Source of the DNA: Longimicrobiales bacterium
Lineage (GTDB): Bacteria; Gemmatimonadota; Gemmatimonadetes; Longimicrobiales; Gaopeijiaceae
Assembly (NCBI GenBank): GCA_951828585.1
Contig: OX639991.1
Location: 1,892,576-1,956,575, forward strand
DNA: 64,000 nt
Reading direction: 5' to 3'
Shown in pieces: positions 46,290-56,920 of the stretch. A program made the translations under genes and the position numbers. Below the pieces are notes generated by a model. That model was given only the letters and a program-made list of their open reading frames with translations. It did no database searches and was not told the origin of the DNA. Within the stretch, counting starts at the first letter, position 1. Every line of letters begins with the position of its first letter.

Positions 46290-46477
46290 GGCGTGGGGCC
46301 TGGGGAGGAGAAGGTGGGTCAAGGGGCCGCGTACGGTGTCCGGTAGGTTAGGGGTGTGGGGGTGGGGGGACAATGGTGGGGGAAGTCCGCGGAGTTGGGC
46401 GCTGTCATCGCCCGCGCACGGTGCGATGAGTACTTTCCTGGATTCTCCGGACCCAAACCCCCAGCATGGAGGATACG

Positions 46478-47617
46478 ATGCGGTATTCAGTCGGCGTGTG
46501 CCTCGTGCTCGGGGCGGGCGGGTGCGAGCCGGAGAGTCCGGAAGTTGGGGCGCGCACCGGTGCGCCTGCGGACCTCTTCGTCGACACAGCGACCGTCGTC
46601 CACAGCGACCTGCTTTTTCGCGTCAAGAGCGTGGGGCGAATAGCTGACGGGGGTCTTGCGGTCATGAACCAGGGCTCGCGGAACGTGCTGCTGCTGGACT
46701 CACAGGGAGACTCGGCGGGGACCATCGGCCGGCTGGGACAGGGCCCTGGCGATTTCCTTTCGGTGACGGATCTGGACACGAAGGGTGATTCGATCCTCGT
46801 CCTCGACGCGCTCGCGCGCCGACTCCAACTCTTCCATCGGACTTCACTGGTCGACATGTGGTCACTCCGCGAGATCACCGGGACGCTCGCTCAGGTCACG
46901 TTCAGCCCGGATGGAGCCCCGGTGGTGTCCGCCACGCGAGAGCCGCCGTACCCGGCCTCGGGGGATGCCATGAAGGTGCTCAGAGAACCGGTCGAGCTCC
47001 ATCGGGTTGACGAGCCGGCAACGGCACTCGAGACACCGGTCGAGATCCCGGGCGACGAGTACTTCGTAGTCTTTGTCGCCGCCCGTGGAGGGTGGCGGTA
47101 CGGTGCTCCGGCGTTCAGCGCGGCCGCAACCTACGATTTGACAGGGGCAGGGGTGGTTGTCGCGGATGCGCGAAACGGCGGTGTCGTGTCATTCCGCTGG
47201 GGTGGGCAGACAGCCAGGACCCTGCGACCGGCTTCTCCACCAACTGCCGTTTCGGAGGCGGAGATGGACCGGCTGTGGGCTAATGCCGACACCGGTGCCC
47301 GCCGCGTGCAAGACAGGGACAATTACATGACGTACGTGCGGGAAGCGGTGGAGATTTGGGGCGAATCGGTGCCGCGTCCCTTTTGTTCCGTCATCATCAG
47401 CGACGGATCCGAGACGCTCATCCGGCACTACGCACCCGGAGCAAGCGACGTGGCGCAGTGGTCTCTTCTCGGCGAGGACGGCGAGAGTCTCGGCACGTTC
47501 AGCCTCGACAGCGACACGCAGCTCTTCTCGCTTGAGGACCGGGAGATTCTCGGCGTGGGCAAGGACTCGCTGGACGTGGAGCATGTGATTGTCGGTCGGA
47601 TCCGGGGCGCGTCCTGA
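46478..47617 (+). CDS. 6-bladed beta-propeller lipoprotein
   Basis: 379 residues from ATG 46478, preceded by GGAGG; ATG 46466 adds four residues. A short signal with lipobox GAGGC suggests lipid anchoring. The body has propeller repeats: KSVGRIADGGLAVMNQGSRNV, LLLDSQGDSAGTIGRLGQGPGDF, TDLDTKGDSILVLDALAR and a final WSLLGEDGESLGTFSLDS. The 'GR-x-G-x-GPGDF' signature is shared with the proteins at 18987 and 52258. Function unknown; probably a surface binding protein. It stands alone, next to the divergent symporter operon and upstream of the histidine promoter. Confidence 0.7.
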   Translation: MRYSVGVCLVLGAGGCEPESPEVGARTGAPADLFVDTATVVHSDLLFRVKSVGRIADGGLAVMNQGSRNVLLLDSQGDSAGTIGRLGQGPGDFLSVTDLDTKGDSILVLDALARRLQLFHRTSLVDMWSLREITGTLAQVTFSPDGAPVVSATREPPYPASGDAMKVLREPVELHRVDEPATALETPVEIPGDEYFVVFVAARGGWRYGAPAFSAAATYDLTGAGVVVADARNGGVVSFRWGGQTARTLRPASPPTAVSEAEMDRLWANADTGARRVQDRDNYMTYVREAVEIWGESVPRPFCSVIISDGSETLIRHYAPGASDVAQWSLLGEDGESLGTFSLDSDTQLFSLEDREILGVGKDSLDVEHVIVGRIRGAS

Positions 47618-47667: not shown

Positions 47668-47721
47668 CCGAATCCACTGACAACCGAATCCATTGACACG
47701 GTATCCGCGAACTGCGAGAAT
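47668..47721 (+). promoter_or_regulatory. Promoter of the histidine operon
   Basis: TTGACA at 47693-47698, a 17-bp spacer and GAGAAT at 47716-47721 (4 of 6 bases of TATAAT). Two direct copies of ACCGAATCCA(C/T)TGACA lie at about 47668 and 47683, a 15-base period, the second carrying the -35 box. Transcription should begin within a few bases of the leader ATG at 47730. Confidence 0.6.
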
Positions 47722-47729
47722 CAGACCCC

Positions 47730-47792
47730 ATGAACACCCGCACCCACACCCCGACCCATCATCACCACGGCCACCGAGAGGCGGTCGTGTGA
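47730..47792 (+). CDS. Histidine operon leader peptide (HisL-like)
   Basis: A 20-codon frame, too short for ordinary gene calls, starting ATG AAC ACC CGC and ending TGA at 47790-47792. Six of its codons are histidine, four of them consecutive (codons 10-13), with others at 6 and 15. Such a peptide, followed by an intrinsic terminator and hisG, is the classic attenuation design: ribosome stalling at the histidine codons when charged His-tRNA is scarce prevents the terminator from forming. It begins only about 8 bases after the -10 box, so the leader may lack a normal ribosome binding site. Confidence 0.85.
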   Translation: MNTRTHTPTHHHHGHREAVV

Positions 47793-47828
47793 CGGCATAG
47801 CCACGCCAGACGGACGGGCTTGACCGGC

Positions 47829-47860
47829 ACCGGCTTCCTCGACGGGAGGCCGGTTTTTTT
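47829..47860 (+). terminator. Attenuator terminator before hisG
   Basis: An 11-pair stem with two G-T pairs (ACCGGCTTCCT at 47829-47839 pairing with 47844-47854), loop CGAC, and seven T at 47854-47860. It lies 37 bases after the leader-peptide stop and 80 bases before the hisG start. I could not identify a clear antiterminator pairing by eye. Confidence 0.85.
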
Positions 47861-47939
47861 ACACGTGGGAGTCAGGTTGCGGAACTGCTGGAACCCTGCG
47901 GAGGCCGAACACGGCGGCTCGCGGAACGGAGGAAACAAA

Positions 47940-48851
47940 GTGAAAACGCTGTTGGAGACAAAAGGCATCAGAGGCGACGACGCGGCCCGCGCGGGACAGG
48001 TCCGCATCGGTCTGCCCAAGGGAAGCATGCAGGCAGGTGTGCTCGCGCTCCTGGCCGACGCGGGCGTGGATGTCCGCGTGGGCGAGCGCAACTACCGGCC
48101 CGCGCTCTCGTGGCGCGGCTTCGCGGCCAAGCTGCTCAAGCCCCAGAACGTGGTGGAGATGCTGCACGCGGGGTCGCGCGACGTGGGCTTCGCGGGCGCG
48201 GACTGGGTGGCCGAGCTGGGCGCCGACCTGGCGGAGCTCCTGGACACCGGACTGGACCCCGTCCAGGTCGTCGCGGCCGCCCCTGCCGACCTCCTGGTGG
48301 ACGGCGCCCTCCCCCCCAACCGCCCCCTGGTCGTCGCATCCGAATACACACGCCTTACACACCAATGGATCGCGACCCAGCCCATCGACGCCGTTTTCGT
48401 CCGGTCCTACGGAGCCACCGAGGTCTTCCCCCCCGAGGACGCCGACCTGATCGTGGACAACACGGCCACCGGATCCACGCTGCGCGCCAACGGACTCGCG
48501 ATCGTGGACACCCTCATGCGCTCCTCCACCCGGCTCTACGCCAGCCGCCCCGCCCTCGACGACCCCGCCCGGCGCGCCCCGGTCGAGGACCTCGTCCTCC
48601 TCCTTCAGTCCGTCCTCGAAGCACGCCGCCGCGTCATGCTGGAACTCAACGTCGCGGAGGCCGACTTCGAGCGGGTCGTGTCCATCCTGCCCTGCATGCG
48701 CGAGCCCACCGTGTCGCGCCTTCACGGCGAGAGCGCCTACGCGATCCGCGCCGCCGTCCCCCGCACCGCGCTGCCGGCGCTCCTCCTCGACATCAAGGCG
48801 CAGGGCGGCACCGATCTCGTCGTCTCCGAGCCTCAGCAGATCGTCCCATGA
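47940..48851 (+). CDS. hisG: ATP phosphoribosyltransferase (long form)
   Basis: First enzyme of histidine synthesis, joining ATP and PRPP. GTG 47940 follows GGAGGAAAC. Conserved features include RIGLPKGSMQAGVLALLADAG, GFAGADWVAELGAD, and the PRPP-binding ADLIVDNTATGSTLRANGLAIVD. The C-terminal region (RRVMLELNVAEADFERVVSILPCMREPTVS… TDLVVSEPQQIVP) is the regulatory HisG_C domain of the long, histidine-feedback form that does not need HisZ. 303 residues. The stop overlaps the hisC start (ATGA). Confidence 0.95.
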   Translation: MKTLLETKGIRGDDAARAGQVRIGLPKGSMQAGVLALLADAGVDVRVGERNYRPALSWRGFAAKLLKPQNVVEMLHAGSRDVGFAGADWVAELGADLAELLDTGLDPVQVVAAAPADLLVDGALPPNRPLVVASEYTRLTHQWIATQPIDAVFVRSYGATEVFPPEDADLIVDNTATGSTLRANGLAIVDTLMRSSTRLYASRPALDDPARRAPVEDLVLLLQSVLEARRRVMLELNVAEADFERVVSILPCMREPTVSRLHGESAYAIRAAVPRTALPALLLDIKAQGGTDLVVSEPQQIVP

Positions 48852-50503
48852 GTCCGCCCCGCCGCCAAATCATCGACCTCAGCATGAACGAGGGCGAGCC
48901 GCCCAGCCGCGCCTGCCTCGAAGTCCTCGAACGCCATGGCCCCGCCCTGCTCCGCAAATACGCCGACCCCGCCCCCCTCGAAGCCGCCTACGCCGCCTAC
49001 CTCGGCACCGACCCCGCCAACGTCCTCGCCACGACCGGCGGCGACGACGCCATCGACCGTGTCTTCCGCGCATTCCTCGCGCCGGGACAGGAGATGGTCT
49101 TTCCGACCCCCACCTTCGAGATGGTCCCGGCGTGCGCCCGCATGGCCCGGGGAGACCTCGTCCCCATCGAGTACGAGTGGGGAACGCTGCCCCACGACGA
49201 GATCCTCGCCGAGGTGAACGAGCGGACCGGCGTGGTGGCGGTCCTCACCCCCGACAACCCCACCGGGCGCGCCTTTTCCACCGATTCCCTCCTCCGTCTC
49301 ACCGCCGCGCTTCCCCCCGAAGTTACCCTCATGGTCGACCTGGCCTACGCCGAGTTCGCCGACGAGGACCCCACCCCCGCCCTCCTCGAGGTCCCCCGCG
49401 CGATCATGATCCGCACGATGTCGAAGTCGTGGGGTCTGGCGGGCCTCCGCGTGGGCTTCGCGGTGGGCGCCAGGGACCGGATCGACATGCTGCGCGGGTA
49501 CGGCGGCCCCTACGCGCTGACCGGGCCCTCGATCGCGATCGCGGTGGACCGGCTGCAGAATGGCGTCGACGAGATGCGCGGGTTCGTGGAGTACATCCGC
49601 TCCCGCCGCGAACGCCTGGCCGAGGTTCTCCGCGATGTCGGCGGTGTCCCCGAGCCGTCGCAGACCAATTTCGTGCTCGCCTCCTTTCCCGACGCGCGCT
49701 GGATCCAGCGGGGGATGGCCGCGCAGGGGGTGCTGGTGCGGTACTTCGAGCATCTGCCCGAGTACGTGCGCATCACCGTGCCGCGCGACGACTCCGAGTT
49801 CCGCCGCGTGGAGCGCGCGTTGAGGTGCCTCGACCGTCCCGAGGCGCTGCTTTTCGACATGGACGGCGTGCTGGCCGACGTCCGGCGGTCGTACCGCGAG
49901 GCGATCGTGCGGACCTGCGCCTCGTTCGGGGTGGAGGCCGGCCTCGACCTGATCGAGGCCGTGAAGGCGGCCGGGCAGGCCAACGACGACTGGGCGGTGA
50001 CGCACGGCGTGCTGGCGGACGCGGGCGTGCAGACGTCGCTGGCCGAGGTGACGGCCCGCTTCGAGGAGTTGTACCAGGGCACCGACGACGAACCGGGACT
50101 CCGCCGCCACGAGATGCTGATCCCGTCGCGCGAACTGCTCGCGGGGCTGGCCGGTCGGTTCAAGCTGGGGATCGTGACGGGGCGGCCGCGTGCCGACGCC
50201 GAGCGTTTTCTGCGCGAGGAGGGCGTGCGCGGGCTGTTCGGCGCCGTCGTGTGCCGCGAGGACGCGCCGCTCAAGCCGGATCCGGCGCCGGTGCGGGTCG
50301 CGCTGGAGCAGTTGGAGGCGCGGACCGCGTGGATGCTGGGCGACACCCCCGACGACGTGCGGGCGGCGGTGGGGGCGGGGGCGGTGCCCGTGGGGGTGGC
50401 GGGGCAGGGGGGCGGGGAGACCGTCTGGACGGCGCTCGAAGAGACGGGCGCCGCGCGAATCGTCAAAGCGGACACCGACTTTGGAGGATTGTTCCATGGC
50501 TGA
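48848..50503 (+). CDS. hisC: HisC-HAD fusion: histidinol-phosphate aminotransferase + phosphatase domain
   Basis: 551 residues in two domains. Residues 1-328 form a PLP aminotransferase: DNPTG at 136-140, the aspartate in MVDLAYAEF, and the PLP lysine Lys193 in MSKSWGLAGLRVGF; HisC is the best fit. Residues 332-551 form a HAD-type phosphatase: nucleophile Asp337 in LLFDMDGVLADV, LGIVTGRPRADAERFL, and WMLGDTPDDVRAAVGAG. The fused HAD domain may supply histidinol-phosphatase, which is otherwise missing from this operon. The start overlaps the hisG stop; the end overlaps hisB by 8 bases. Confidence 0.9.
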   Translation: MSPPRRQIIDLSMNEGEPPSRACLEVLERHGPALLRKYADPAPLEAAYAAYLGTDPANVLATTGGDDAIDRVFRAFLAPGQEMVFPTPTFEMVPACARMARGDLVPIEYEWGTLPHDEILAEVNERTGVVAVLTPDNPTGRAFSTDSLLRLTAALPPEVTLMVDLAYAEFADEDPTPALLEVPRAIMIRTMSKSWGLAGLRVGFAVGARDRIDMLRGYGGPYALTGPSIAIAVDRLQNGVDEMRGFVEYIRSRRERLAEVLRDVGGVPEPSQTNFVLASFPDARWIQRGMAAQGVLVRYFEHLPEYVRITVPRDDSEFRRVERALRCLDRPEALLFDMDGVLADVRRSYREAIVRTCASFGVEAGLDLIEAVKAAGQANDDWAVTHGVLADAGVQTSLAEVTARFEELYQGTDDEPGLRRHEMLIPSRELLAGLAGRFKLGIVTGRPRADAERFLREEGVRGLFGAVVCREDAPLKPDPAPVRVALEQLEARTAWMLGDTPDDVRAAVGAGAVPVGVAGQGGGETVWTALEETGAARIVKADTDFGGLFHG

Positions 50504-51134
50504 AGGAAACGGGACCCGGGGCGAACGCGGCAGAACGGCCCGCGTGTCGCGCGAGACCGGCGAGACGAAGGTCGAAGTGCGCCTCGATGTGGACGGGCGC
50601 GACAAGGCTCCGCCGGACGATGCGGCCGCGATCGAGGTCAAGACCGGAATCGGCTTCTTCGATCACATGCTGCACGCGCTGGCCTTCCATGGGGGATGGG
50701 AGTTGGAGCTACGCTGCGACGGCGACCTCGATGTCGACGACCACCACACCGTCGAGGACACGGGGCTGGCGCTGGGCCAGGCGGTGGCCCACGCGCTCGG
50801 CGACCGGAAAGGGATCGCGCGATTCGGCCACGCCTACGCCCCCCTCGACGAAGCCCTGGCGCGCGCCGTCGTGGACGTCTCCGGCCGCCCCTTCTTCGCG
50901 GGCGAGCTGAACCTGCGGCGCGAACGCGTGGGCGCGCTCTCCACCGAGATGGTCCCGCACTTCTTCCATTCCTTCGCCCAGGCCGCCGCCATCACCCTGC
51001 ACGTCGACGTGATCCGCGGCGCCAACGACCACCACCGGATCGAAGCGTGCTCTAAGGCGGTCGCGCTGGCGCTCAGGGCCGCGCTGAGCCTGGCTGGCGG
51101 GGATCGGGTGCCGTCGACGAAGGGGGTGCTGTGA
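50496..51134 (+). CDS. hisB: Imidazoleglycerol-phosphate dehydratase
   Basis: 212-residue monofunctional dehydratase converting imidazoleglycerol phosphate to imidazoleacetol phosphate. Signature blocks are GIGFFDHMLHALAFHGG, the two metal-binding histidine sets in DDHHTVEDTGLALGQA and NDHHRIEACSKAVALAL, HFFHSFAQAAAITLHVDV and the ending GGDRVPSTKGVL. It lacks the N-terminal phosphatase domain of the E. coli protein, matching the idea that the HAD domain of the preceding fusion takes that role. ATG 50496 overlaps the hisC stop by 8 bases; the stop overlaps the hisH start (GTGA). Confidence 0.97.
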   Translation: MAEGNGTRGERGRTARVSRETGETKVEVRLDVDGRDKAPPDDAAAIEVKTGIGFFDHMLHALAFHGGWELELRCDGDLDVDDHHTVEDTGLALGQAVAHALGDRKGIARFGHAYAPLDEALARAVVDVSGRPFFAGELNLRRERVGALSTEMVPHFFHSFAQAAAITLHVDVIRGANDHHRIEACSKAVALALRAALSLAGGDRVPSTKGVL

Positions 51135-51733
51135 GGTCGGTCACCGTCGTGCGCACCAGCACGGCCAACCTGGCGTCGGTGCTGACCGGTCTGGAGCGCC
51201 TCGGGTGTCGCGTGCGAACCACCGCCGATCCGCGTGAGGTGGCGGACGCGGACCGGGTGGTGCTGCCCGGTGTGGGCGCCTTTGCGGCGGCCCAGCGCGC
51301 CATTGCCGCGCACGGCCTGGCCGATTCGCTGCGCGAGCGTATCGATCGCGGTCGTCCCACGCTGGGCATCTGTCTCGGCATGCAGCTGATGGCGCGTGGC
51401 AGCGAGGAGGCGCCCGGAGTGCCCGGGCTCGGCGTTCTCGACGGGGTGGTCGAGAGCTACGAACCCGGCGAAGAGGGCTGGCGGGTCCCGCAGATGGGCT
51501 GGAACCTGGTCGAGCCACAGGACGGGTGCCGCATTGTGCCGCGCGGTCACGCCTACTTCGCCAACTCGTACCGGTTGGCCACGGCCCCGGAGGGGTGGCT
51601 GCCGGTCTGGTGCGAGTACGCCGGCAGGTTCGTGGCTGCCGTGGAGCGTGGTCCGGTGGTGGGCTGCCAGTTTCATCCGGAGCTGTCGGGTGAGTACGGC
51701 AGGGCGTTGCTTGTCCGCTGGCTGGAGGCCTGA
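51131..51733 (+). CDS. hisH: Imidazole glycerol phosphate synthase glutaminase subunit
   Basis: 200-residue class I glutamine amidotransferase. The nucleophile cysteine is in LGICLGMQLMARGSEE, and the His-Glu pair is in VVGCQFHPELSGEYG. The RIDRGRPTLGICLG context and PGVGAFAAAQRAI near the N-terminus fit HisH. It supplies ammonia to HisF. In most operons hisF follows closely; here they are separated by about 1.7 kb holding a Cys-rich secreted-protein gene and a broken propeller gene. Start GTG 51131 overlaps the hisB stop. Confidence 0.95.
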   Translation: MRSVTVVRTSTANLASVLTGLERLGCRVRTTADPREVADADRVVLPGVGAFAAAQRAIAAHGLADSLRERIDRGRPTLGICLGMQLMARGSEEAPGVPGLGVLDGVVESYEPGEEGWRVPQMGWNLVEPQDGCRIVPRGHAYFANSYRLATAPEGWLPVWCEYAGRFVAAVERGPVVGCQFHPELSGEYGRALLVRWLEA

Positions 51734-51847
51734 GCGCGGACGCGAGGCGCCACGGGCGGTGCCGGGCGGACAAGCGGACACACTCCAACTCTGTGCTCCG
51801 GGAGGCCGGACACTCCATTTGCTCCCGACGCCCGCTTGCGAGAATTC

Positions 51848-51860
51848 GGGGGGGGGGGGG
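51848..51860 (+). repeat. Homopolymeric G13 tract
   Basis: Thirteen consecutive G, about 70 bases before the start of a Cys-rich secreted-protein gene. Tracts this long slip easily during replication, so it could switch expression of the downstream gene. Confidence 0.85.
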
Positions 51861-51878
51861 TACCTTGGCAGTCGTTGG

Positions 51879-51897
51879 GCGGGCAGGGTCTGCCCGC
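51879..51897 (+). other. Hairpin upstream of the Cys-rich secreted protein
   Basis: Perfect 8-bp inverted repeat GCGGGCAG / CTGCCCGC with a three-base loop, between the G13 tract and the ATG at 51929. No T-run follows, so it is more likely an RNA hairpin or protein site than a terminator. Confidence 0.5.
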
Positions 51898-51928
51898 AAC
51901 CGATACCTTCCAAACGGAGAAGAATGAC

Positions 51929-52336
51929 ATGACGATTCGAAAGCTGTTCCCGTTGCTGTTCGTGGCCGTGGCCGCGGTGGTTCTGATGCCGGAGACGGCG
52001 TCGGCGCAGTGCTGGTGGTGCGGGGTCTGCGCCTGGGATTCAGACGAACGAAACCCAAAGAGCTGTACGGGCAGGACACAAGGGTTTCCGGTCGGCTTCA
52101 CGAACTGCCACGAAGACGCGCCATGCGCGTGTCGGCTGGATCCCCGAGACTTCGGCATCTGCCTCCCTTGGGAAGCCGAGGCCGCTGCCGCGGAAACCGA
52201 GCAGTTGAAGAAGACGCTCGCAGCCATCAGGGCGGGCAGGTCCGTCTCGGCCGATGGACCTTGTCGGTCTGGACGCCTTCGGGTGAGCGTCTGTTCAGCG
52301 TGGGGCGCTCGGGCGAGGGTCCGGGGGACTTCATGA
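51929..52336 (+). CDS. Small Cys-rich secreted protein, C-terminus out of frame with the next gene
   Basis: 135 residues from ATG 51929 (GGAGAAG upstream), with a signal peptide ending ASAQ followed by a Cys-rich segment CWWCGVCAWDSDERNPKSC and …NCHEDAPCACRLDPRDFGIC. After residue 110 or so (a helical AAAAETEQLKKTLAA) the frame runs into sequence whose other frame continues a beta-propeller, so the tail is probably not native. The insert region lies between hisH and hisF. Six or more cysteines suggest disulfide bonds in the mature part. I do not recognise the family. Confidence 0.6.
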   Translation: MTIRKLFPLLFVAVAAVVLMPETASAQCWWCGVCAWDSDERNPKSCTGRTQGFPVGFTNCHEDAPCACRLDPRDFGICLPWEAEAAAAETEQLKKTLAAIRAGRSVSADGPCRSGRLRVSVCSAWGARARVRGTS

Positions 52337-53271
52337 TGCCGTATCGCGTACACTTCGAGGACTCCCGGTTCTACGTGCGCGACCAGCCGAAGTTCACCTA
52401 CTTCTCGTACTCCGGGGCCCTGCTGGGAACGGTGTCCAGCCCGCCCACTTCGCTCGGCTACCAGGGATTCCCTCTCAAGATCGACGCCCTGACTGCGGAC
52501 GGAAGCTTCCTGGGCAATCCGAACATAGGGAGGAGCGTGGAGCTGGGTCTGTTCGGCAATGATCCCATCGACAGTCTGCCGGTGTTCAGCATTCGCGAGA
52601 CTTCCGGGGGCTGGGTACGCGATGTGGTCTATTGGCGCGACATCCGTAACACCAATTTCGCGCTCTACTACGGGCACCGGCTCACCTTTCCGGGGCAACC
52701 GTTCACGGTCGCCGACGACTATCGGTTGGATCCGGGCGCCGGAACCGTCCTGGTCGCCCAGGTTGTCGGCGAGCACTTGGGAGCGGGCGAAGCGGAGCTG
52801 TTCGAACTGTCTGCAATGGCCGATGGCGATCGGTCCGTGGGCGATACCGTCTGGCACCGCCGGTTGGCGTTCGAGCCGATCCCGTTGACCCCGGCGATGG
52901 TGGAGGGCGCGATCGATCGGGTGGTGGAGCGGAATGTCCGTGTGCCCGAGGGCGAGGACAGCGTCCGCGTGCGAGAGTCGGCGCGCGGCAACATCGAGGA
53001 ATCGGTTCATGTGCCGGAGTACCTGCCGGCCGTCAAGAGGCTCTTCTTGGCGTCGTCCGGACAGGTGTGGATCCTGAGCCACGAAACCGTGGACACCCTC
53101 AATGTCTGGTACTCGATCGAGCGGGGAGACGACGAATCGCCGCCCCGGCGCGTACTCCTCCCCGATTGGTTCCTGGTGATGGATGCGACGGACACCCACG
53201 TCTGGGGCGTTTGGAGGGATGAACTGGACATCAACTATGTCGTGGGGCGGAGGCTGGTGCCCCGGTCCTGA
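52240..53271 (+). pseudogene. 5'-truncated 6-bladed beta-propeller gene
   Basis: From about 52250 the frame encodes a propeller without its N-terminal part: TLSVWTPSGERLFSVGRSGEGPGDFMMPYRV, then DSRFYVRDQPKFTYFSYSG, AGTVLVAQVVGEHLG, LFLASSGQVWILSHETVD and the ending DINYVVGRRLVPRS. No signal peptide or plausible start lies in this frame; upstream, in the other frame, is the Cys-rich gene. The likely explanation is a deletion that removed the end of that gene and the 5' part of the propeller and joined them out of frame. Related propellers at 18987 and 46478 are full length. Confidence 0.65.
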
Positions 53272-53455
53272 GGGGGTAGCCGCGCGCACGCGGCGGCCTC
53301 CGGCGGGTTCATTGACACCGTCCACGCGAAAGGCGACCGTCAACGCTCTCGGTGCTCGGGCGGCTTTGTCCACGGACTGACAAGCGGCGACATCGACCGG
53401 ATTCCGCTTCCGGTTGCCGGCACCTTCCGCGGCCGCCCAACTGGAGATTCGCATC

Positions 53456-54376
53456 TTGCTCCCCGTCCGCATCATCCCGTGTCTGGATGTCCGTGATGGC
53501 CGGGTCGTGAAGGGCGTCAGATTCCGCGGCCTCGCCGACCAGGGCGACCCGGGCGAGCTGGCCCATGCGTATGAGGAGCAGGGGGCGGACGAGGTGGTCG
53601 TCCTGGACGTGACGGCCACCCCCGAAGGGCGCGGGACGCGGCGCGACACCGTGGCCGCCGTGAGGGCGGGGCTGTCGGTGCCGCTGACGGTTGGGGGCGG
53701 GATCGGTGGGGTGGGGGACGCGGCCGCCCTTCTCGAGGCGGGCGCGGACAAGGTGGCGGTGAACACGGCCGCGCTCCGGCGCCCCGAACTCCTCACCGAC
53801 CTGGCCGCGCGGTTCGGGTCACAGTGCGTGGTGGTCTCGATCGACGCGTTGCGAACGGGTGATGGCCGCACCGACAGCGATGACGGCGCCCGGGCGATGC
53901 AATGGCTCGATGGGCCGCCGACCAACCATCGCGGCGCAGCCGAATCCCCCTACGAAGTCGTCGTACTCTCCGGCACCGAACAGCTCGCCCGGGACGCGGT
54001 CGCCTGGGCGCGCGAAGCGGTGGACCGGGGCGCCGGCGAGATCCTGCTCACCAGCATCGACCGCGACGGCACTCGCAGCGGCTACGAACTCTCGCTGCTT
54101 TGCGCGGTGCGCTCCGCCGTGCGGGTCCCCATCGTGGCGTCGGGAGGCGCGGATTCCCCCGGGCACATGGCCGACGCGGTGCGCGCGGGGGCGGACGCGG
54201 TGCTGGCCGCCTCGATCTTCCACCAGGGCAACTGGACGGTCGGGGCTGTCAAGGAGGCGCTGGTCGGACTCGGTGTGGAGGTGCGACCGAACTACATGGC
54301 GGAACCCGCGCGCGCGGCCACGCCGTCGCCGGTGGCTGCGGCGGGCACAGTGCCGGTTCCGGAGGGAACCCCATGA
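53456..54376 (+). CDS. hisF: Imidazole glycerol phosphate synthase cyclase subunit
   Basis: TIM-barrel cyclase that joins PRFAR with ammonia from HisH. 306 residues from TTG 53456, with GGAG upstream; the TTG at 53414 is possible. The N-terminal PVRIIPCLDVRDGRVVKGVRF and the C-terminal ILLTSIDRDGTRSGYE, VPIVASGGADSPGHM and VLAASIFHQGNWTVG are characteristic. The residues between SIDA and the next conserved helix (about 20 residues, with DSDDGARAMQWLDG) are longer than usual. The stop overlaps the hisA start (ATGA), so this half of the operon is coupled again. Confidence 0.93.
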   Translation: MLPVRIIPCLDVRDGRVVKGVRFRGLADQGDPGELAHAYEEQGADEVVVLDVTATPEGRGTRRDTVAAVRAGLSVPLTVGGGIGGVGDAAALLEAGADKVAVNTAALRRPELLTDLAARFGSQCVVVSIDALRTGDGRTDSDDGARAMQWLDGPPTNHRGAAESPYEVVVLSGTEQLARDAVAWAREAVDRGAGEILLTSIDRDGTRSGYELSLLCAVRSAVRVPIVASGGADSPGHMADAVRAGADAVLAASIFHQGNWTVGAVKEALVGLGVEVRPNYMAEPARAATPSPVAAAGTVPVPEGTP

Positions 54377-55644
54377 TCATCCCTTCCATCGACCTCATGG
54401 ACGGCCTGGCGGTACAGCTGGTCCAGGGCCGCCGCAAGGTCCTCGAGGCCGGCGATCCCCGCCCCATCGCCGAGCGCTTCGGCCGGGTGGGCGAGGTGGC
54501 CGTCGTGGACCTCGACGCGGCGCTGGGCCGCGGCTCCAACACCGCCGTCATCGAGGAGTTGTGCCGATTGGCCCCCTGTCGCGTGGGCGGCGGAATACGC
54601 GACCGGGACGCGGCCCTCGCGTGGTTGGATCGCGGCGCGGCGAAGGTCGTGCTCGGCACCGCCGCCGTCCCCGAGGTGCTGGAAGCCCTGCCCCGCGACC
54701 GGGTCGTCGCCGCCCTGGATGCCTGGGAGGGCGAGGTCGTGGTCAAGGGATGGACCGAACGCACGGGCCGCACCGTCCTCGACGGCATGCGCGAGCTGTG
54801 CGGCCTCGCGGGCGGCTTCCTGGTCACCTTCGTCGAGGGCGAGGGCAGGGAAGGCGGCTTTCCGCGCGAACGGATCGCGCCACTGGTGGAGGCGGCCAGC
54901 ACCTCGCGCCTGACCATCGCCGGCGGCATCACCACCGCGGAGGAGATCGCCTGGCTGGACCGAGTCGGCGCCGACGCGCAGGTCGGGATGGCGCTCTATC
55001 GCGGCAACCTCGACCTGGCCGAGGCCTTCACCGCACCGCTCGGCAGCGAGCGCCCCGACGGGCTCTGGCCCACGATCGTGACCGACGACCGCGGCGGCGC
55101 GCTCGGCCTGGTCTGGTCGAGCCTGGCGAGCGTGCGCACGGCGATCGACGAAGGCCGCGGCGTCTACCACTCGCGTTCGCGGGGACTGTGGCGCAAGGGC
55201 GCGACTTCGGGCTCCACCCAAGCCCTGCTCCACATCGCACCGGACTGCGACCGGGACGCACTGCGCTTCACGGTCGCGCAGGCGGGCGATGGATTCTGTC
55301 ACACCGGGGACTGGACCTGCTTCGGCCCCGCGCGCGGACTCCGTGGGCTGGAACTCACGGTTAAGGGGCGGCGGGCCGAGCCGGTGGCCGGATCGCTGAC
55401 CGGCCGGGCGCTGGCGGACGATTCGTTTCTGCGCGGCAAGCTGGTCGAGGAGGCGGGAGAGCTGGGGCATGCGGAGGGCGCGGACCGCGTCGTCGAGGAG
55501 GCGGCCGACCTGGTGTACTTCCTGACCGTGGCGCTGGAGCGTGCCGGTGCCGGCATGGCCGAGGTGGAGCGCGAGCTGGACCGGCGCGGCATGAAGGTCA
55601 GCCGGAGAAGGGCGTCGGAGCCGAAGGGGGCGGGGCGTGGGTGA
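54373..55644 (+). CDS. HisA-HisI-HisE fusion protein
   Basis: 423 residues in three domains. Residues about 1-222 are HisA-like (TIM-barrel isomerase): MIIPSIDLMDGLAVQLVQG, VAVVDLDAALGRGSNTAVI, VGGGIRDRDAALAWL, and VVKGWTERTGRTVLD. About 228-330 form phosphoribosyl-AMP cyclohydrolase (HisI): YHSRSRGLWRKGATSG, the DCDRD metal site, and FCHTGDWTCFGPA. About 350-423 form a short phosphoribosyl-ATP pyrophosphatase (HisE): GKLVEEAGELGHAEG, RVVEEAADLVYFLTVAL. HisIE fusions are common, but joining them to HisA is not usual. The stop overlaps the hisD start by 8 bases. Confidence 0.9.
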   Translation: MIIPSIDLMDGLAVQLVQGRRKVLEAGDPRPIAERFGRVGEVAVVDLDAALGRGSNTAVIEELCRLAPCRVGGGIRDRDAALAWLDRGAAKVVLGTAAVPEVLEALPRDRVVAALDAWEGEVVVKGWTERTGRTVLDGMRELCGLAGGFLVTFVEGEGREGGFPRERIAPLVEAASTSRLTIAGGITTAEEIAWLDRVGADAQVGMALYRGNLDLAEAFTAPLGSERPDGLWPTIVTDDRGGALGLVWSSLASVRTAIDEGRGVYHSRSRGLWRKGATSGSTQALLHIAPDCDRDALRFTVAQAGDGFCHTGDWTCFGPARGLRGLELTVKGRRAEPVAGSLTGRALADDSFLRGKLVEEAGELGHAEGADRVVEEAADLVYFLTVALERAGAGMAEVERELDRRGMKVSRRRASEPKGAGRG

Positions 55645-56920
55645 GGTCCGCCTCAGACGGCTGGACGCAACCGAAGCCGCCCGCGCCCGACAGCCCGCCG
55701 TCCGTCCCGAGCTCATCGCGGCGGTGCTGGAGATCATCGAATCCGTGCGCCGGGGGGGAGAGGCGAAGCTGCGCGAGTACGCCGAACTGCGGGACGGTCT
55801 TGAAGCCGGCGGGGCGCTGGTCCGGACCCCCGCCGAGATGAAGGCGGCGCTGGAGTCGCTGCCGCGGTCCGATCGCGAGGTGCTGGAGCGCACCGCGGGC
55901 CGGATCGAGCACTTCGCCCGCGCGCAGATGGCGTCGGTGGCGCCGGTGGACGTGGCGGTGGAGGGGGGGAGGGCGGGCGACCGCGTGGTGCCGGTCCGGG
56001 TGGCCGGGTGCTATGCGCCGGGGGGGCGGTTTCCGCTGCCGTCGTCGGTGCTCATGACGGCTGTGACGGCCAGGGTGGCCGGGGTGCGCGAGGTGTGGCT
56101 GGCCTCGCCGAAACCGTCCCGCGAGGTGATGGCGGCGGGGGCGGTGGCGGGGGTGGCGGGGTTGTTGGGGGCGGGGGGGGCGCAGGCGGTGGCCGCCATG
56201 GCGTACGGCGTGGGTCCCGTCCCGCGATGCGATGTGGTGGTGGGGCCGGGGGGGGAGTGGGTGACTGCGGCCAAGCTGCTCGTGTCGGGTGTGGTGGGGA
56301 TCGACCTTCTGGCGGGCCCTTCGGAGTTGGCGGTGCTGTCGGACGAGGCCGGGGACCCGGTCCTCATCGCCGCGGACCTGCTTGCGCAGGCGGAGCACGA
56401 TCCTGCCGCGCTGCCGGTCCTCATCACCACCTGCCCGGACCTGGTGGAAAGGGTCGAGGCAGAGCTGGCGCGTCAGCTGTCGGACCTGCCCACCGCCGAG
56501 ATCGCGCGGGCGGCCCTCCGCAACGGATTCGCGGTCGTCGCCCCGGAAGATGAGGCGCTCCGCTGCTGCGAGGAACTCGCCCCCGAGCACCTGCAGCTGC
56601 ACGGCAGCCGTACAGAGGACTGGGAGGGCACTCTAGACAGATTCGGGGCAGTATTTGTCACCGAATCTGTCACGGAGGTGTTGGGGGACTACGGGGCGGG
56701 TCCGAATCACACCCTTCCCACCGGGGGCACGGCCCGGTTTACAGGTGGTCTGTCGGTGCTCTCATTCCTGCGCCGGCCGACCTGGCTAAGGCTTGAAAGA
56801 GGGCCGGAACTCGAAGTCCTTACGAGAGATGCGGCCCGACTGGCCCGCATGGAGGGACTCGAAGCCCACGCCCGCGCGGCGGAACTCAGGAGTGGGAAGA
56901 GGGGCAGCGGGGACAGATAA
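55637..56920 (+). CDS. hisD: Histidinol dehydrogenase
   Basis: 427-residue zinc enzyme catalysing the last two steps, histidinol to histidine. GTG 55637 overlaps the preceding stop. Signature blocks are PVRVAGCYAPGGRFPLPSSVLM, VAAMAYGVGPVPRCDVVVGPG, GIDLLAGPSELAVLSDE (the NAD/substrate region), AEHDPAALPVLITT, and PNHTLPTGGTARFTGGLSV near the C-terminus. The repeat motif GAATCTGTC and its complement occur twice inside the 3' part of the gene (56636 and 56663) and once at its stop. It is the last gene of the histidine operon. Confidence 0.96.
   Translation: MGEVRLRRLDATEAARARQPAVRPELIAAVLEIIESVRRGGEAKLREYAELRDGLEAGGALVRTPAEMKAALESLPRSDREVLERTAGRIEHFARAQMASVAPVDVAVEGGRAGDRVVPVRVAGCYAPGGRFPLPSSVLMTAVTARVAGVREVWLASPKPSREVMAAGAVAGVAGLLGAGGAQAVAAMAYGVGPVPRCDVVVGPGGEWVTAAKLLVSGVVGIDLLAGPSELAVLSDEAGDPVLIAADLLAQAEHDPAALPVLITTCPDLVERVEAELARQLSDLPTAEIARAALRNGFAVVAPEDEALRCCEELAPEHLQLHGSRTEDWEGTLDRFGAVFVTESVTEVLGDYGAGPNHTLPTGGTARFTGGLSVLSFLRRPTWLRLERGPELEVLTRDAARLARMEGLEAHARAAELRSGKRGSGDR

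Follow-up and report, generated by a model that had tools for sequence, protein, structure and literature searches.

A predicted his attenuator with a putatively leaderless leader peptide upstream of hisG in a Gemmatimonadota genome

In E. coli and Salmonella, hisL joins a short His-rich leader ORF, alternative RNA pairings and an intrinsic terminator, with hisG directly downstream. We describe a locus of like design in a 64-kb stretch of Gemmatimonadota DNA, hereafter the window. Two features set it apart from E. coli hisL. First, its leader has four plus one His codons where E. coli has seven in a row. Second, its ATG begins 8 nt past the -10 box, unlike that of E. coli, which lies ~38 nt past TAGGTT, the known -10 box of hisL.

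Leader-peptide systems were called unknown outside Proteobacteria and Actinobacteria in 2010, when a His leader was proposed in bacilli (PMC2965389), and further Firmicutes his attenuators were proposed in 2022 (PMC9413887). In the consulted sections of these two papers, the Firmicutes leaders (B. cereus group, Peptostreptococcaceae, Erysipelotrichales) also combine an antiterminator with a terminator, carry 3–5 His codons in a row and rest on the same kind of comparative evidence as ours; they belong to another phylum, and those sections report no leaderless starts. Leaderless leader peptides with measured transcription start sites are described, in the parts of the sources used here, for trpL of Sinorhizobium meliloti (PMC7298713), for leuL, ilvL and trpL1 of Streptomyces lividans (PMC8079986) and for the ilvB leader of C. 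diphtheriae (PMC5784534). As in those systems, a leader ORF at the 5' end of the transcript would feed the attenuator in the window; their starts are mapped, and ours is predicted from the promoter. They differ in amino acid and in phylum, and the same parts of these three papers describe no leaderless his leader.

Firmicutes His leaders and leaderless trp, leu and ilv leaders are thus already known; the phylum and the candidate leaderless his leaders are new. A first, sequence-only reading of this DNA had suggested that his attenuation, known best from Proteobacteria, would gain range here. The gain of Gemmatimonadota stands, as the part of the literature that we searched yielded no earlier paper on leader peptides in this phylum, although the known range had already passed beyond Proteobacteria into Firmicutes (PMC2965389 and PMC9413887, in the sections consulted).

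The region before hisG

The window contains every element that the sequence-only reading had listed: a TTGACA-N17-GAGAAT promoter, a 20-codon leader frame with six His codons, four of them in a row, a terminator with seven T, and hisG. These features and the genes beyond them are given below.

47693..47698, + strand: -35 box TTGACA, read in the sequence; TTGACA with a spacer of N17-18 is conserved in the genus
47716..47721, + strand: -10 box GAGAAT, with TG just before it; it ends 8 nt 5' of the leader ATG
47730..47792, + strand: leader ORF MNTRTHTPTHHHHGHREAVV and stop codon, 20 codons, ATG start, conserved in relatives
47757..47774, + strand: control codons His10-13 (CAT CAT CAC CAC) and His15 (CAC), within the predicted antiterminator stall window
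47829..47860, + strand: intrinsic terminator (3:4) ACCGGCTTCCT-CGAC-GGGAGGCCGGT with T-run, -19.7 kcal/mol
47940..48851, + strand: hisG, first operon gene, GTG start after GGAGGAAAC with GGAGGA upstream (TIGR00070, TIGR03455)
48848..50503, + strand: hisC fused to a HAD-family hydrolase domain (TIGR01141, TIGR01548; PF00155, PF00702)
50490..51134, + strand: hisB, start approximate (NF002111 above cut-off)
51131..51733, + strand: hisH (TIGR01855)
53459..54376, + strand: hisF, start approximate (TIGR00735)
54328..55644, + strand: hisA fused to hisIE in one frame, start approximate (TIGR00007-like, NF002747/TIGR03188)
55637..56920, + strand: hisD (TIGR00069)

The promoter scores 10 of 12 matches with a spacer of 17 and is the only sigma-70-like site within 2.5 kb, where 0.1 would be expected. 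It lies upstream of the His-rich frame, which speaks against a transcription start downstream of that frame. The leader has His at codons 6, 10-13 and 15, and no Shine-Dalgarno sequence was found ahead of its ATG. Between the leader and hisG, the terminator forms an 11-bp stem (47829-47854) followed by T up to 47860, seven T altogether. Since hisG, hisC-HAD, hisB, hisH, hisF, hisA-hisIE and hisD follow, the proposed switch stands at the head of an almost complete pathway encoded on a single strand; the HAD domain of the HisC fusion, which is TIGR01548-like, could supply the histidinol-phosphatase activity.

A same-strand gene (46466-47617) stops 76 nt short of the -35 box, so one might suppose that the terminator simply ends that gene and that the His-rich ORF is a chance frame. 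We give this almost no credence. The terminator lies 212 nt beyond the gene, past a new promoter. Counting both strands, the window has 404 ORFs of 8-45 codons that start with ATG; of these, only the leader contains HHHH or at least five His in nine residues, and 20 dinucleotide shuffles of the window (5466 such ORFs) gave none. Moreover, the upstream gene differs among relatives, yet the leader recurs before hisG.

The locus is also singular in its own genome: a covariance model made from genus sequences matches once in 4.47 Mb, at the window locus. A promoter-anchored scan of the genome's own trpE, leuA and ilvB-like locus revealed no Trp or branched-chain leader; within the scope of that scan, this genome therefore does not use attenuation generally.

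The Rfam search that the sequence-only reading had recommended came back negative. His_leader (RF00514, gathering cut-off 49 bits) had no match in the window or in three related loci (L006, L047, L113), whereas the same model scored 131.6 bits on E. coli hisL as a positive control. The Gemmatimonadota leader therefore falls outside that Rfam family as modelled, though it would work alike.

Alternative folds and ribosome position

Folding of the leader transcript predicts four further elements.

47762..47792, + strand: hairpin 1:2 of the minimum free energy fold without translation; it overlaps the His codons and the 3' end of the leader ORF
47778..47791, + strand: 5' arm of the antiterminator (segment 2), GAGG-C-GGTCG-T-GTG
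47793..47826, + strand: middle hairpin, inside the antiterminator; its sequence varies in relatives, with a hairpin still predicted
47828..47840, + strand: 3' arm of the antiterminator (segment 3), CAC-CGGCT-T-CCTC, which doubles as the 5' arm of the terminator

Free of ribosomes, the leader is predicted to fold into hairpin 1:2, the middle hairpin and the terminator (z = -3.1). We then folded the RNA for successive ribosome positions, with segment 4 not yet transcribed. With the A site at His10, 11 or 12, segments 2 and 3 form an interrupted 12-bp helix with all 12 pairs at about -34 kcal/mol, an energy that holds for naked RNA and for an assumed footprint of 15 nt from the A-site codon. As the ribosome moves on, the value falls to -26 kcal/mol at His13 and -19 at His15, against -19.7 for the terminator. 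At the stop codon the antiterminator helix is absent and -9 kcal/mol remains. The folding check for an antiterminator suggested earlier thus returned a strong predicted one with the ribosome on the His run and none at the stop codon.

In every genus member tested, this energy drop coincides with the end of the His run; in the genus Palauibacter it follows the YYYH run. A His-tRNA sensor requires just such a loss of the antiterminator where the His run ends. Across 72 loci, upstream RNA sequesters segment 3 with a median energy of -12.5 kcal/mol when the ribosome stands on the first His of the run, vs -4.1 at the stop; 38 of the 72 lie at or under the 5% level of shuffles, and the other 34 are individually non-significant. 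A covariation test of the antiterminator within the genus scored at the shuffle mean and is uninformative because the helix hardly varies, 8 of its 12 pairs being invariant. The arms pair at 98% in the genus vs 35-65% with slid partners, a figure that is biased because the structure was derived from these same sequences. By prediction, then, ribosome stalling at the control codons favors an antiterminator that is mutually exclusive with the terminator.

Could another His sensor, whether a T-box, a riboswitch or a protein, work on the same terminator? Such control has precedent, as his genes of Gram-positives are under T-boxes and repressors according to the consulted part of PMC9413887, and two relatives (L018, L019) retain the terminator with the leader absent. 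We judge it very improbable here. All Rfam families, T-box included, stayed below cut-off in the window, and a search of the leader alone at a relaxed threshold found none at E<=0.2, chance matches only. The His run is placed precisely so that a ribosome stalled on it would free the antiterminator.

Conservation in the genus and the phylum

We searched 22 other genomes of the genus and found hisG in 17. Leader, promoter, antiterminator and terminator are all present in 16 of these 17, the exception being G009; the His-rich frame that the sequence-only reading proposed to look for in relatives is thus conserved. Five genus genomes (G003, G011, G013, G015, G016; 93-96% complete) gave no hisG match, and they are possibly His auxotrophs or lack the relevant contigs.

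From the phylum we sampled 80 regions upstream of hisG, in most cases a single one for each genus. A His-rich ORF occurs on the forward strand of 47 of them, on the reverse strand of none and in no shuffle, and a terminator follows most of these ORFs. By family, the counts before hisG are 14/18 in f1 (the family of the window genome), 5/5 in f2, 22/24 in f5, 3/14 in f4 and 3/7 in f7; no His-rich ORF precedes hisG in family f3 (0/5) or in f10 of the sister class (0/4). His attenuation is therefore no oddity of one genome; several families of the class commonly have it.

The exceptions differ among themselves. In f3 and part of f4, a gene that reads like the hisZ type precedes hisG, so the leader may stand before another gene there. 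In the close relatives L018, L019 and L098 (the last being genus genome G009), promoter-like and/or terminator sequence remains 5' of hisG and the His leader is absent; there the His sensor seems lost or replaced. One record labelled Chloroflexi (L016) also carries the his leader. Within f1, HisG comes in two types, with ~60-100% and ~30% identity to the HisG of the window.

A distinct variant occurs in Palauibacter (genus g71; L047, L071, L076, L080 and L181-L184). Its his leader, which varies slightly among loci, has the form MTNTH[PAL]FFGHYYYHR.. and mixes His, Phe and Tyr codons, three Tyr standing at His positions of the relatives. Promoter spacing, antiterminator and terminator are kept, and the genes that follow run hisG-hisC-hisB-hisH-hisF. 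The operon possibly responds to aromatic amino acids as well, by way of a HisC with dual use.

Peptides rich in His can bind Ni or Zn, a general affinity that would suit a small functional metal-binding peptide that senses nothing; we regard this explanation as most improbable. Conservation is confined to the His codons and the RNA segments, with flanking residues and His count variable among relatives; Palauibacter versions have Tyr in place of His; and the ORF is invariably flanked by promoter and terminator, 5' of hisG.

Leader start, mechanism and reach

The sequence-only reading had remarked that the leader ATG is so close to the -10 box that the transcript may be leaderless, and class-wide spacing strengthens this idea. 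All 22 leaders aligned from the genus and Palauibacter have a gap of 8-9 nt from -10 box to ATG. Across the class, with gaps of 3-40 nt allowed, the start codon lies 5-10 nt past the inferred -10 box in 51 of 51 leaders, compared with 19% of random anchors falling at 5-11 nt, and an SD-like 4-mer precedes the ATG in only 3 of the 51. Bacterial transcription usually begins ~7 nt past the -10 box, so the window transcript should begin at the ATG or at most ~3 nt before it, which places the predicted start at ~47727-47730. On this spacing, the leader very probably begins at the first bases of its transcript and is leaderless.

The same attenuator might instead be transcribed from farther upstream, by another promoter or by read-through, with the leader translated from a longer 5' UTR. 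The same-strand gene 76 nt 5' of the -35 box leaves room for this. We consider it unlikely, as no other site within 2.5 kb matches a promoter well. The fixed gap of 8-9 nt (22/22, two lineages) and 5-10 nt (51/51), with SD-like 4-mers in three, also counts against a longer 5' UTR, because a conserved start that is not leaderless needs no such spacing. The leaderless reading thus yields a testable claim: his leaders here are translated without a 5' UTR.

Taken together, the anatomy, the folding by ribosome position and the conservation bear out the textbook his attenuation first proposed for this locus, and the region before hisG is very probably an attenuator through which a translating ribosome, sensing charged His-tRNA, controls transcription of the his operon. 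From the sequence elements, the alternative pairings predicted by folding and their conservation, we infer transcription start, stalling and termination in the cell as follows. RNA polymerase would start at the leader ATG or within ~3 nt of it, and a ribosome would load at the 5' end of the transcript without a Shine-Dalgarno site, as the promoter spacing suggests. When His is low, the ribosome would stall at His10-13, and segment 2 (47778-47791) would pair with segment 3 (47828-47840) around the middle hairpin before segment 4 emerges. The resulting antiterminator would block the terminator, so that hisG and the genes beyond are transcribed. When His is ample, the ribosome would reach the stop codon and mask segment 2, leaving segments 3 and 4 to pair, and transcription would stop at the T-run.

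Leaderless spacing may reach beyond the phylum. With the hisG query we found 28 His-leader loci outside the phylum survey, mostly from Planctomycetota, Spirochaetes and proteobacterial lineages, with one from Acidobacteria and three labelled Gemmatimonadetes. With gaps up to 70 nt allowed, the best promoter ends 6-10 nt before the start codon in 25 of the 28, a result that we treat as a lead because the promoter match is weak at some loci. No SD was seen at these leaders, and many of the loci have a terminator core like ACGCCGGCC. Loci from Planctomycetota, Spirochaetes and proteobacterial lineages with both leaderless spacing and this type of core encode HisG proteins 62-70% identical to that of the window. 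The shared leader and terminator traits hint at a common origin or at transfer of the operon together with its attenuator.

We regard as evenly poised a broader proposal: his attenuators of the leaderless kind would be widespread in several phyla (Gemmatimonadota, Planctomycetota, Spirochaetes, some Acidobacteria and proteobacterial lineages), possibly because the device is ancient or has been shared horizontally. The ribosome would engage the first nucleotide, coupling the sensing translation to the polymerase from the start, and Palauibacter would have retuned the sensor to Tyr/Phe besides His. If true, textbook attenuation in many phyla runs on leaderless initiation, a point that matters for transcription-translation coupling at the start of the transcript. 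For annotation, the pattern TTGAC, N17, -10 box, 5-10 nt, ATG, His run and terminator marks switches that the present Rfam model misses.

Between hisH and hisF of the window lies an interval of ~1.7 kb (51736-53458) that is missing in L005, where hisF directly follows hisH. Two overlapping frames in this interval (51836-52336 and 52009-53271) look like one frameshifted secreted protein. The C-terminus of that protein, ELDINYVVGRRLVP, also ends the gene just 5' of hisG in L003.
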